Below, in pieces: positions 49,992 to 52,858 of a DNA stretch of 64,000 nucleotides. Each line of letters starts with the position of its first letter. Positions within the stretch are counted from its first letter, which is position 1. Under the pieces are notes generated by a model. It was given only the letters and a program-made list of their open reading frames with translations, did no database searches and was not told the origin of the DNA. Source of the DNA: Mucilaginibacter galii (GTDB taxonomy: Bacteria > Bacteroidota > Bacteroidia > Sphingobacteriales > Sphingobacteriaceae); assembly GCF_014635825.1 (NCBI RefSeq), contig NZ_BMDO01000006.1:186001-250000 (forward strand), written 5' to 3'. Made by a program: the position numbers and the translations under genes.

Positions 49992-51830
49992 ATGGGTTAC
50001 CGTAGCTTACAATCTTGCATTGCCGATCTTGAAAAACATGGCCGCCTCATACGCATTAAAGAGGAAGTAGACCCTTATTTGCAAATGGCCGCCATACACC
50101 TCCGCGTGTATGAAAATGAAGGTCCGGCTATTTTATTTGAGAATGTAAAAGGAAGCCAGTTCCCGGCGGTGAGTAACCTGTTTGGTACACTGGATAGGTC
50201 ACGTTTTATTTTCAGGGATACACTTGACAAGATCAAGACCCTGGTTGATTTAAAAACCGACCCCATGAAAGCGCTTAAACGGCCTTTTAGTTATGCTAAT
50301 GTAGCCCTTACGGCCCTCTCGGCCCTGCCCATGAAAACCGGCAAAAGCGCCCCAATCAATTTTGGCCGCACGCAAATAAGCGCCCTGCCCCAGGTGGTAA
50401 ACTGGCCTATGGATGGCGGCCCCTTTGTGACCATGCCGCAAGTGTATACCGAAGACGCCGACAAGCCGGGCATCATGAACGCCAACCTGGGCATGTACCG
50501 CATTCAACTGGGTGGCAATGAGTATGTAATGGACCAGGAAATTGGATTGCACTACCAGCTCCATAGAGGCATTGGCGTGCATCAAACTAAAGCTAATGCC
50601 AAAGGGCAGCCCCTTAAAGTGAGCATATTTGTTGGTGGCCCGCCATCGCACCCGGTAGCAGCCGTAATGCCGCTGCCCGAAGGTCTTTCAGAAATGACCT
50701 TTGCCGGGGCTTTGGGCAACCGCCGGTTCCGTTATTTTTATGATGCCGAAGGCTTTTGCATATCGGCCGATGCAGATTTTGTAATTACCGGCACCGTAAT
50801 GCCGCACGAAAATAAGCCCGAAGGCCCCTTTGGCGACCATTTGGGTTATTACAGTTTGCAGCACCCTTTCCCGCTCATGAAGGTGCATAACGTGTATCAC
50901 CGTAAAGATGCCGTATGGTCGTTCACGGTGGTGGGCCGCCCGCCGCAAGAGGATACCAGCTTTGGCGCATTGATCCACGACATTACAGGCTCCGCCCTGC
51001 CCTCAGAAATACCGGGCTTACATGCCGTTAATGCCGTTGATGCGGCCGGTGTGCACCCGTTATTGTTTGCCATAGGCAGCGAACGTTATACCCCGTATTT
51101 AAAAGAACGCCGCCCGCAAGAGATACTCACCATTGCCAATCATATTTTAGGCAAAAACCAGCTTAGCTTAGCTAAGTACTTGTTTATTGCAGCCAAAGAA
51201 GACGACCCTGCCTTAAACATTAATAATATTGAAGCATTTTTAAAGCACGTGCTGGAACGTGTTGACTTAACCCGCGACCTGCACTTCTACACCCGCACTA
51301 CCATTGATACTTTAGATTACAGCGGCAGCAGCTTAAACAGCGGCAGCAAAGTAGCCATAGCTGTGGCAGGCGAAAATAAACGCGAATTATGGACCGAGTT
51401 ACCGGCCAATTTTAGCTTACCACGCCCATTCAACATCTTTAAAATGGCAATGCCGGGTGTATTGGCTGTTGAGATTCCGCAGTTTATTCATGAAGATGAC
51501 ATTGCCGATGCTCTGATTATGCTGGATGATTATGTAAAAGATACCGACCTTACCGGGCTACCGCTAATGGTGTTGTGCGATGATGCAGGTTTTACTGCGC
51601 AAACCATCAATAACCTGGTTTGGGTAACCTTTACCCGCAGCAATCCATCGCATGATATTTACGGCATCCGCAGCTTTACCGAGCACAAGCACTGGGGCTG
51701 CCATGGTCCGCTCATTATTAACGCCCGTAAAAAACCGCACCATGCGCCTGAATTGGTTAAAGACCCGGCGGTGGAGAAGTTTGTGGATAAAATGGGTGAA
51801 AAGGGTGGTAGTTTGTATGGGGTGATATAA
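49992..51830 (+). CDS. UbiD family decarboxylase
   Basis: A 612-residue protein of the UbiD family, which uses prenylated FMN to decarboxylate aromatic acids in quinone synthesis and elsewhere. Seen: MGYRSLQSCIADLEKHGRLI at the start, the core substrate/cofactor motif NKPEGPFGDHLGYYS and FVGGPPSHPVAAVMPLPEG. The C-terminal region (DIYGIRSFTEHKHWGCHGPL) extends beyond E. coli UbiD (about 497 residues). No UbiX homologue is in the window. The quinone or other substrate remains undecided. Confidence 0.92.
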   Translation: MGYRSLQSCIADLEKHGRLIRIKEEVDPYLQMAAIHLRVYENEGPAILFENVKGSQFPAVSNLFGTLDRSRFIFRDTLDKIKTLVDLKTDPMKALKRPFSYANVALTALSALPMKTGKSAPINFGRTQISALPQVVNWPMDGGPFVTMPQVYTEDADKPGIMNANLGMYRIQLGGNEYVMDQEIGLHYQLHRGIGVHQTKANAKGQPLKVSIFVGGPPSHPVAAVMPLPEGLSEMTFAGALGNRRFRYFYDAEGFCISADADFVITGTVMPHENKPEGPFGDHLGYYSLQHPFPLMKVHNVYHRKDAVWSFTVVGRPPQEDTSFGALIHDITGSALPSEIPGLHAVNAVDAAGVHPLLFAIGSERYTPYLKERRPQEILTIANHILGKNQLSLAKYLFIAAKEDDPALNINNIEAFLKHVLERVDLTRDLHFYTRTTIDTLDYSGSSLNSGSKVAIAVAGENKRELWTELPANFSLPRPFNIFKMAMPGVLAVEIPQFIHEDDIADALIMLDDYVKDTDLTGLPLMVLCDDAGFTAQTINNLVWVTFTRSNPSHDIYGIRSFTEHKHWGCHGPLIINARKKPHHAPELVKDPAVEKFVDKMGEKGGSLYGVI

Positions 51831-51872
51831 AACTCCGTTGTCAGTATTTGGAAGAACTGGTTAAGCGGCGAA

Positions 51873-51947
51873 TGCTTCGACAAGTTCAGCATGACACATG
51901 CGAAAGTAAAAGTAGCTAACCGTGTCAGTCTGAGCTAGTCGAAGACT
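51873..51947. repeat. Palindromic repeat, family C
   Basis: Arms GCTTCGACAAGTTCAGCATG and CAGTCTGAGCTAGTCGAAGA, related to 32163-32224 but with the two arm types in the opposite order. Confidence 0.7.
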
Positions 51948-52250
51948 TAGCAAAGCGGCAAATGCCAAGTTTGTACTTTCAAATTAGTCTGTGCCCTTTT
52001 AGGATTGGGACGTGCTTTGCCTCACGGCAGTGGATGCTACTTTTCTTTTATACAAAAGAAAAGTAACCAAAAGAAACTTAGCGAAGCGATCTCATGAACA
52101 CCAAAAACAAATAATTGTGAATAAACTTGCGGCTACGTTTATTTGCTACTTGATGCTGTGGTTCTATTAGGGCTTGTGCTAACCGCAAAACACTGATGCC
52201 GCGGAAAAAAGAATTTGGGTAGTGCTCTTTGTCTTAGAATAACTTTATAC

Positions 52251-52377
52251 CGCCCGTACAGGCGTCCACGCCTGTACGTATTCTGGTGTAAGCGTCCACG
52301 CTTACGTTACCGCAATCAGTTTCGCAAGCGTAGACGCTTGCCCAAAAAGCATTCAGGCGTGGACGCCTGAATGGGCG
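52251..52377. repeat. Four consecutive short hairpins inside an outer pair
   Basis: Hairpins at 52256-52277, 52288-52305, 52324-52341 and 52351-52372 have perfect stems of 9, 7, 7 and 9 bp and 4-base loops (TCCA, TCCA, TAGA, TGGA). Their cores are variants of GGCG/AGCG-N4-CGCC/CGCT. The outer CGCCC (52251-52255) pairs with GGGCG (52373-52377). Confidence 0.8.
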
Positions 52378-52412
52378 ATTTGAATTGAAAATTGATAACT
52401 TTTAAACCAAAA

Positions 52413-52502
52413 ACGTCATTGCGAGGTACGAAGCAATCTCTTCAAGATAGGTAAGCCGTCGACTTTTCTACGCAGGGATTGCTTCGTACCTCGCAATGAC
52501 GT
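52413..52502. repeat. Palindromic repeat, family B, 26-bp perfect arms
   Basis: Arms 52413-52438 and 52477-52502 are exact reverse complements, containing GTCATTGCGAGGTACGAAGC. A diverged relative is at 32041-32122. Confidence 0.85.
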
Positions 52503-52514
52503 ATAGAAGCTTAA

Positions 52515-52556
52515 AAATACAGAAAGCCGATTCATGTGAACCGGCTTTCTGTATTT
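52515..52556 (-). terminator. Hairpin terminator of FtsB/DivIC-like gene
   Basis: Perfect 15-bp stem (52515-52529 with 52542-52556), ending in a T-run on the minus strand, at the gene's stop codon. Confidence 0.8.
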
Positions 52557-52858
52557 TATTCTTCTTTTTTCTTTTCTTTAACAATCACGAACACATCCTC
52601 GTTTGCTTTTTTCATGAGGTATCTTTCACGGGCAAATTTTTCGAGTTTGGCCGGATTGGAAGTCAATTCGTCAAGTTCTTTGCTTACCTGGGCAGTTTCT
52701 TTGGTGTAAAAGTCGCGTTCCTGCTCCAGCTTGTTCAATTGCTGGCGCTGCTCATACTGGCTGTACAGATCATTTTTGTCGAAAAACAACATCCAGACAA
52801 TAAATACTACGGTTACCAGGAAAAACTTATTCTTAAGCAAGTCTACGGCGCGTTTCAT
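52556..52858 (-). CDS. FtsB/DivIC-like septum formation initiator
   Basis: A 100-residue protein with one membrane span (FFLVTVVFIVWMLFF) followed by a coiled coil (YEQRQQLNKLEQERDFYTKE) and the conserved end ARERYLMKKANEDVFVI, all typical of FtsB/DivIC cell-division proteins, which form a complex with FtsL and FtsQ/DivIB. The start is uncertain: the ATG at 52858 is chosen, but in-frame ATGs at 52882 and 52885 would add 8 or 9 residues. It follows the RhlE helicase start region on the same strand without overlap; the helicase gene lies upstream. Confidence 0.85.
   Translation of the reverse strand: MKRAVDLLKNKFFLVTVVFIVWMLFFDKNDLYSQYEQRQQLNKLEQERDFYTKETAQVSKELDELTSNPAKLEKFARERYLMKKANEDVFVIVKEKKKEE

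Follow-up and report, generated by a model that had tools for sequence, protein, structure and literature searches.

The RAYT protein of E. coli and of other REPtrons binds single-stranded REP DNA and cuts it near the hairpin, a reaction reported to need both the GTAG tag and the tyrosine, and it is able to transfer the strand (PMC8266576). Among TnpA_REP proteins, subclass 2.6 corresponds to RAYT group 5 of Bertels, is found mostly in Bacteroidetes and is described as associated with REPs of 'atypical secondary structures', without GT[AG]G, that were found by manual inspection (PMC6006769). In that account, this subclass and class 3 stand alone among RAYT-like groups in having flanking structures characterized only as atypical (PMC6006769). 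Its members are reported to share the motifs NH[LIV]H, WQ and YIH[QN]NP, a HUH-Tyr distance of about 82 and a length of about 179 (PMC6006769, Table 1), as well as a 21-aa insertion between alphaC and beta4 (PMC6006769).

Here, we examined a block of four hairpins lying in a 64-kb stretch of DNA, hereafter the window. The block is most probably a non-autonomous REPIN/BIME formed by two inverted REP half-units around a variable spacer, with a 173-aa RAYT (C1:1151650-1152168) as its likely partner, and it very probably relies on a dedicated hairpin-cutting transposase whose gene lies elsewhere in the genome. As far as our searches reach, the element is known in kind and new in form, owing to its two-hairpin REP and its CGCC tag; among the titles and abstract openings listed in searches of an open-access library, none names this layout.

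The four perfect stems that an earlier note on this DNA had placed at 52251-52377 are all present, with lengths of 11, 8, 8 and 11 bp, and their loops measure 4 nt, as claimed, when the innermost T-A pair is open (2 nt if it is closed). The cores of the hairpins, from H1 to H4, are indeed related (GCGTCCACGC, GCGTCCACGC, GCGTAGACGC and GCGTGGACGC) and constitute the only occurrences of GCGTNNACGC in the window. The outer clamp described by the same note exists as letters, CGCCC at 52251-52255 and GGGCG at 52373-52377, but is really a 4-nt tag (CGCC / GGCG) followed by the basal base of the outer stem, positions 52255 and 52373 being paired within the outer hairpins H1 and H4, respectively. The whole block is an inverted repeat with 43-nt arms that are 77% complementary. 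Its features are given below, with scores from R1, a covariance model trained on 48 half-units from many genomes.

52251..52377, no strand assigned: complete four-hairpin element (REPIN/BIME-like) made of two inverted half-units; two facing R1 matches, 76.8 and 68.5 bits
52251..52305, + strand: left half-unit with tag, outer hairpin, linker and inner hairpin; R1 76.8 bits, E 1.2e-14; in the R1 training set
52251..52254, + strand: tag CGCC, at the foot of the left outer hairpin on its 5' side; conservation within the family begins here, identity outside being at chance level
52255..52278, + strand: outer hairpin H1, 11-bp stem; perfect inverted repeat
52288..52305, + strand: inner hairpin H2, 8-bp stem; perfect inverted repeat
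52306..52323, no strand assigned: central spacer, variable; length and sequence vary across the nine full copies
52324..52377, - strand: right half-unit, inverted; R1 68.5 bits, E 7.2e-13; in the R1 training set
52324..52341, - strand: inner hairpin H3, 8-bp stem; perfect inverted repeat
52350..52373, - strand: outer hairpin H4, 11-bp stem; perfect inverted repeat
52374..52377, - strand: tag at the foot of H4 (CGCC on this strand); placed by the edge alignment of family copies

The fold of a 167-nt stretch containing the block reaches -82.7 kcal/mol, whereas 200 shuffles give -41.9 (sd 4.0; z -10.2). The view that the block is more ordered than ordinary intergenic palindromes is supported. The multi-arm junction proposed for single-stranded DNA or RNA was rejected as the resting fold, one long hairpin being more stable with RNA and DNA parameters and on both strands. 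Because the whole block is an inverted repeat, the minimum-energy fold of the isolated top strand pairs H1 with H4 and H2 with H3, reaching -81.2 versus -54.8 kcal/mol for four arms with RNA parameters and -44.4 versus -36.9 kcal/mol with DNA parameters; four separate hairpins are thus less stable by 26 and 7.5 kcal/mol, respectively, and the bottom strand likewise favours the long hairpin over four arms. The four-arm form is possible with a protein bound or on a growing strand.

The block belongs to a repeat family of its own genome. A BLAST query of 167 nt containing the block matched the source assembly of the window (G000; 4.86 Mb, 26 contigs) 26 times, a single place often being counted on both strands, and R1 identified 24 half-units at 14 places. 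Nine of these places are complete fours, consisting of facing half-unit pairs of 117-130 bp whose spacers vary, so that the grouping in fours is conserved and the hairpins are not the single, ungrouped ones whose finding would have spoken against the initial description. The others comprise a back-to-back pair next to the RAYT gene, a solitary outer hairpin (C1:365246) and lone half-units at C1:109662, C2:62856 and C1:860717, the inner stem of the last having decayed. No ORF of at least 120 aa overlaps 13 of the 14 places, which are extragenic by this measure; at the fourteenth, the overlap is with a single mechanical ORF that runs antisense to the neighbouring gene. The edges of the family are sharp: in an ungapped alignment of 22 edges at the tag, pairwise identity amounts to 0.23-0.35 in the six bases directly outside and to 0.69, 1.0 and 0.91 at tag positions 1, 2 and 3, respectively. 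Tags at these edges read CGCC (12), CGCA (5), TGCC (3), TGTC (1) and CGCT (1), giving the consensus CGCC. The number of copies in the genome is small compared with REP families, a point against the REPIN/BIME reading.

The architecture was read from 73 half-units picked by a perfect-hairpin search (12 from G000 and 61 from other genomes). Each is composed of a tag, a 24-nt outer hairpin (23 nt in the 3-nt-loop type), a linker of 8, 9 or 10 nt (in 12, 47 and 14 half-units, respectively) and an 18-nt inner hairpin (17 nt in the 3-nt-loop type), the consensus of alignment A1 being CGCCCGTTCAAGCGTCCACGCTTGAACG-linker-GTAAGCGTCCACGCTTAC. Read from the tag inwards, the loop region is GTCY in 70/73 outer and 70/73 inner hairpins, and the two hairpins therefore have the same polarity; they are also of the same loop type in all 73 cases (3-nt in 10/10, 4-nt in 63/63). 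The stems covary, with changes on both sides in 12 of 17 pairs versus 6.0 in shuffles, and in 94 cells versus 20.0. The proportion of paired cells, 99.6%, is biased upward because the half-units were chosen by a perfect-hairpin search; the double changes are not explained by that selection alone. A pyrimidine precedes the tag at 19 of the 22 edges of G000, where it was first noticed by eye, and then in 46/60 half-units of other genomes, possibly reflecting a cutting preference. Neither GTAG nor GTGG occurs among the 22 edges or the 73 half-unit tags, which leaves the family outside the GTAG REP superfamily, and the CGCC-type tag, the two hairpins and the linked RAYT leave it outside the CGTC REP superfamily, in which a CGTC tag goes with a single hairpin and without a transposase. 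The family has what defines a REPIN/BIME, namely many extragenic copies, an inverted pair with a variable spacer, and a RAYT flanked by the same units.

The Pfam Y1_Tnp profile matches four places in the genome. A TnpA_REP-like Y1 transposase, which the earlier note had named as the gene to look for, is present and is flanked by the same hairpins; it does not adjoin the window copy and sits on another contig (G000:C1:1151650-1152168). On the 5' side of this gene, a complete four-hairpin block stops 51 nt short of the ATG; on the 3' side, the back-to-back pair starts 6 nt after the stop codon. The 173-aa product scores 105.8 bits against NCBIfam NF047646 (REP_Tyr_transpos, 'REP-associated tyrosine transposase'; cutoff 80) and carries NHLH at 56, WQ at 120 and YIHNNP at 141, as well as SS, with a HUH-to-Tyr distance of 85; an alignment of 39 sequences shows no variation at the two His of HUH, at Trp120 or at Tyr141. 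In motifs, length and spacing, the protein fits subclass 2.6 / group 5. A Foldseek search of the PDB with its AlphaFold model (mean pLDDT 92) ranked first 4er8, the structure of a TnpA_REP in complex with a REP hairpin (E 3.1e-7, TM 0.56, rmsd 6.1), followed by the IS608 and ISDra2 transposases, and 4er8 was the sole PDB match of a sequence profile at E <= 0.01. The model displays a helix at 97-107 and then a short strand at 127-129.

G000 has only one gene of the close RAYT clade. The RAYTs at C11 (L019) and C13 (L020) were rejected as partners, since other hairpins and no R1 half-unit are found there. The C13 locus holds two RAYT copies in tandem, one of them a truncated near-copy of the other (L020, 3103-3405 and 3490-4089), with a different single hairpin on each side.

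Across 149 genomes of the genus, G000 included, some RAYT match (E <= 0.001) was found in 127, and the close clade, delimited at >=67% identity (last member 65% by tblastn) and with a fork support of 100/97, in 28, again including G000. Flanks were inspected for the best match per genome, i.e. 28 of the 36 listed clade matches: R1 half-units adjoin the clade RAYT in 28/28 genomes, on both sides in 25 and on one side at L029, L034 and L042. Most of these loci (25/28) served in R1 training; of the three loci outside it, two (L031 and L048) have half-units on both sides and one (L034) on a single side, and the partial RAYTs L170 and L171, from two further genomes and also outside training, again have them on both sides. 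The loop type and the RAYT have a common history, as the 3-nt type, present in 9/30 clade members, takes 2 changes on the RAYT tree versus 8.0 with shuffled labels. At L044 and beyond (G055:C2, about 1033900-1039700), at least eight half-units lie within 6 kb around the RAYT.

RAYTs of lower identity mostly have other hairpins (L019, L020, L051, L052 and 36 of 72 related records, L053-L088), the sole R1-like exception being L064 with 45, 43 and 37 bits, all others scoring at most 16.5. This locus (1812-2573), from a Flavipsychrobacter MAG, encodes a RAYT of 42% identity with R1-like double hairpins on both sides. Two different hairpins per side occur at some other RAYTs (L052, L060, L157 and L162) and a single one at some (L020 and L062), so the double form is frequent and not universal.

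R1 matches occur in 28/28 genomes with the clade versus 70/121 without it, and the median number of half-units per genome is 17 versus 2, with at most 38 candidates scored per genome; the P values of this coupling (2.8e-6 and 1.4e-10) overstate it because the genomes are related. A strict correlation between RAYT and hairpins was rejected, as 27 of the 121 clade-free genomes contain at least ten half-units, one of them (G106) holding a partial clade RAYT. G004 has 18 half-units and no RAYT match at E <= 0.001. The family can therefore persist without the clade RAYT, or it is moved by another enzyme: in clade-free genomes, the repeats either outlasted a RAYT that was lost or depend on a different enzyme. 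For genomes lacking the clade, further RAYTs of the genus were tried as partners (10 loci from 6 genomes) and rejected, with best R1 scores of 29.5 and 25.9 bits and no clear half-unit.

The abundance of half-units in those 27 genomes is also what one would cite for a domesticated or relic family, in which the units are immobile, the RAYT is kept as a host gene, and the hairpins are fossils or binding sites of a chromosome protein. This scenario, which we consider rather unlikely, further draws on the description of TnpA_REP as a domesticated transposase (PMC8266576) and on one orthologous site that holds a full copy in G036 and G147 and a half-unit plus a broken one in G076. It is opposed by the maintenance of the palindromes through double changes, by the retention of both His of HUH and of the Tyr in the RAYT of G000, and by the state of the window site in relatives. 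From a 3-kb query around the block, the best-matching 29 of 148 relatives were fetched, and no R1 unit was found at the window's place in these 29, even at E 1; one of them (L137) has a lone GCGTNNACGC there. The site being unoccupied in these relatives, copies came or went within the genus, and the block was either gained in the G000 lineage or lost elsewhere. In at least five of them (G143, G123, G005, G139 and G140), both neighbour genes are adjacent without the block, the gap by alignment ends being 42-800 nt versus about 725 in G000. No clean empty site or exact junction was seen among the 29, because the intergenic DNA of the relatives does not align, and neither a target duplication nor a new insertion was seen.

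The copy of G036 was considered as a polymorphism and rejected, since it is at least partly common to G076 and G147. At these loci (L175, L176 and L177 for G036, G076 and G147), the element of G036 and G076 is enclosed by a larger inverted repeat, with one arm on each side, as though it were drawn to palindromes.

Several other repeats surround the block. An intergenic repeat of ~240 bp at 51990-52230 has two other long copies, C2:161346, without hairpins, and C2:62932, followed by a half-unit; their comparison as empty and filled site can only be suggestive because the flanks are too diverged. The window copy and the half-unit at C2:62856 have their left flank in common, and this pair therefore represents one event plus a larger duplication. 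To the right of the block, 52410-52510 contains a separate palindromic repeat of ~90 bp (CGTCATTGCGAGG ... CCTCGCAATGACG) with 76 genome matches, both strands counted, while another interspersed repeat at 51863-51966 (GCTTCGACAAG..TCAGCATGACA) has dozens of matches and forms tandem arrays near C1:767091-767670 and C9:60783-61318.

The position of the block between convergent genes, ending at 51830 and 52556 and probably encoding, to judge by their translations, a UbiD-like and a septum-type protein, raises the question of an action mainly as RNA. The block would then be a terminator or a protector of mRNA 3' ends, kept for that role whatever its origin. Both strands fold strongly, one terminator-like site exists on the - strand (stem 52373-52350 then CTTTTTGGGC), and REPs of other bacteria are reported to stabilise mRNA or end transcription (PMC6006769). 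However, terminator-like sites are not in excess, with 2 versus 1.4 expected in 51700-52700, and an intrinsic terminator, taken as a stem and T run above chance, was rejected on this count; moreover, the T run falls in the linker, whose sequence is not conserved. Nothing in 51700-52700 reached an Rfam gathering score for a known structured RNA. A role at the RNA level also leaves unexplained the sharp tag edge, the RAYT linkage and the loops that track the RAYT tree, and we regard it as improbable. Lastly, a mere chance cluster of GC-rich palindromes with no family, to which the 89 occurrences of GCGTNNACGC in the genome versus 51 for the reversed control pattern might lend some colour, can be dismissed in view of the 14 places with conserved layout, the fold z-score, the BLAST/R1 family, the covariation, the sharp edges and the restriction of R1 matches (E <= 1e-5) to 9 of 151 genomes sampled from the bacterial family, all of the window's genus, with none in 24 other genera.

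The preferred reading thus remains a REPIN/BIME served by a RAYT. The suggestion that the block is a protein-binding or transposition substrate stands in its second part as the best interpretation, because the block is ordered and grouped in fours and the genome has a hairpin-flanked Y1 gene; both binding and transposition are what we infer by analogy, as are cleavage, copying and movement by the RAYT. In the mechanism that we envisage, a strand exposed in replication or repair would let the tag and hairpins fold, the HUH/Y1 RAYT would bind the tag and hairpin pair and cut near the hairpin foot through Tyr141, and the unit would be copied or inserted elsewhere as single-stranded DNA. Either strand is a possible substrate because each carries one tag-first half-unit. 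By analogy with E. coli and other REPtrons, the CGCC tag would serve as the guide, in the role of the GTAG of other REPs, and the double hairpin as the binding site.

A plausible, albeit tentative, extension is that the substrate of group 5 RAYTs in Bacteroidota is bipartite, with a CGCC-type guide and two hairpins whose centres are ~30 nt apart, hence the four-hairpin REPINs. If so, the loop type common to both hairpins would imply that one protein surface reads both, through two molecules or in two steps, and this bipartite reading would differ from the single-hairpin complex solved for E. coli. The layout and its natural variants, which change in step with the enzyme, make substrate recognition in subclass 2.6 testable with short oligonucleotides. 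They also indicate that a REPIN can be assembled from composite REPs and that its tag need be neither GTAG nor CGTC.

How the element stands among the known systems nearest to it can be summarized as follows. It resembles the ends of IS200/IS605 elements by the HUH/Y1 fold and by subterminal hairpins with a guide at their foot (PMC6006769), but the Y motif of the RAYT is YIHNNP and not the Y---Q given for that family (PMC6006769), and the single clade gene of the genome provides no evidence of moving as a unit. CGTC-tagged REPs are described as having similar tag letters, an arrangement mostly in inverted dimers and a presence in Bacteroidetes as well (PMC3733652), along with features of their own, namely one 8-9 bp stem, a short tail mostly fitting CCA and no linked transposase (PMC3733652), whereas the present family has CGCC at 12/22 edges and a linked RAYT. 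With the GTAG REPIN/BIME of E. coli, Pseudomonas and Stenotrophomonas, as these sources present them, it shares short palindromes, a 5' tag, inverted pairing, a variable spacer, an extragenic location and a RAYT gene that has these units at its flanks (PMC8266576, PMC2817692, PMC8049555). It differs from them by a CGCC tag instead of GTAG or GTGG, by two hairpins per REP at nearly fixed spacing, and therefore four per REPIN, and by 24 half-units in this genome versus hundreds. With subclass 2.6 / group 5 as described, the RAYT shares NHLH, WQ, YIHNNP, SS, a HUH-to-Tyr distance (85) close to that reported, relatives in named Bacteroidota records and flanks without GT[AG]G; whereas the structures of that subclass are described as atypical (PMC6006769), the layout is resolved here as a tag and two hairpins that are joined by a linker and have a common loop type.
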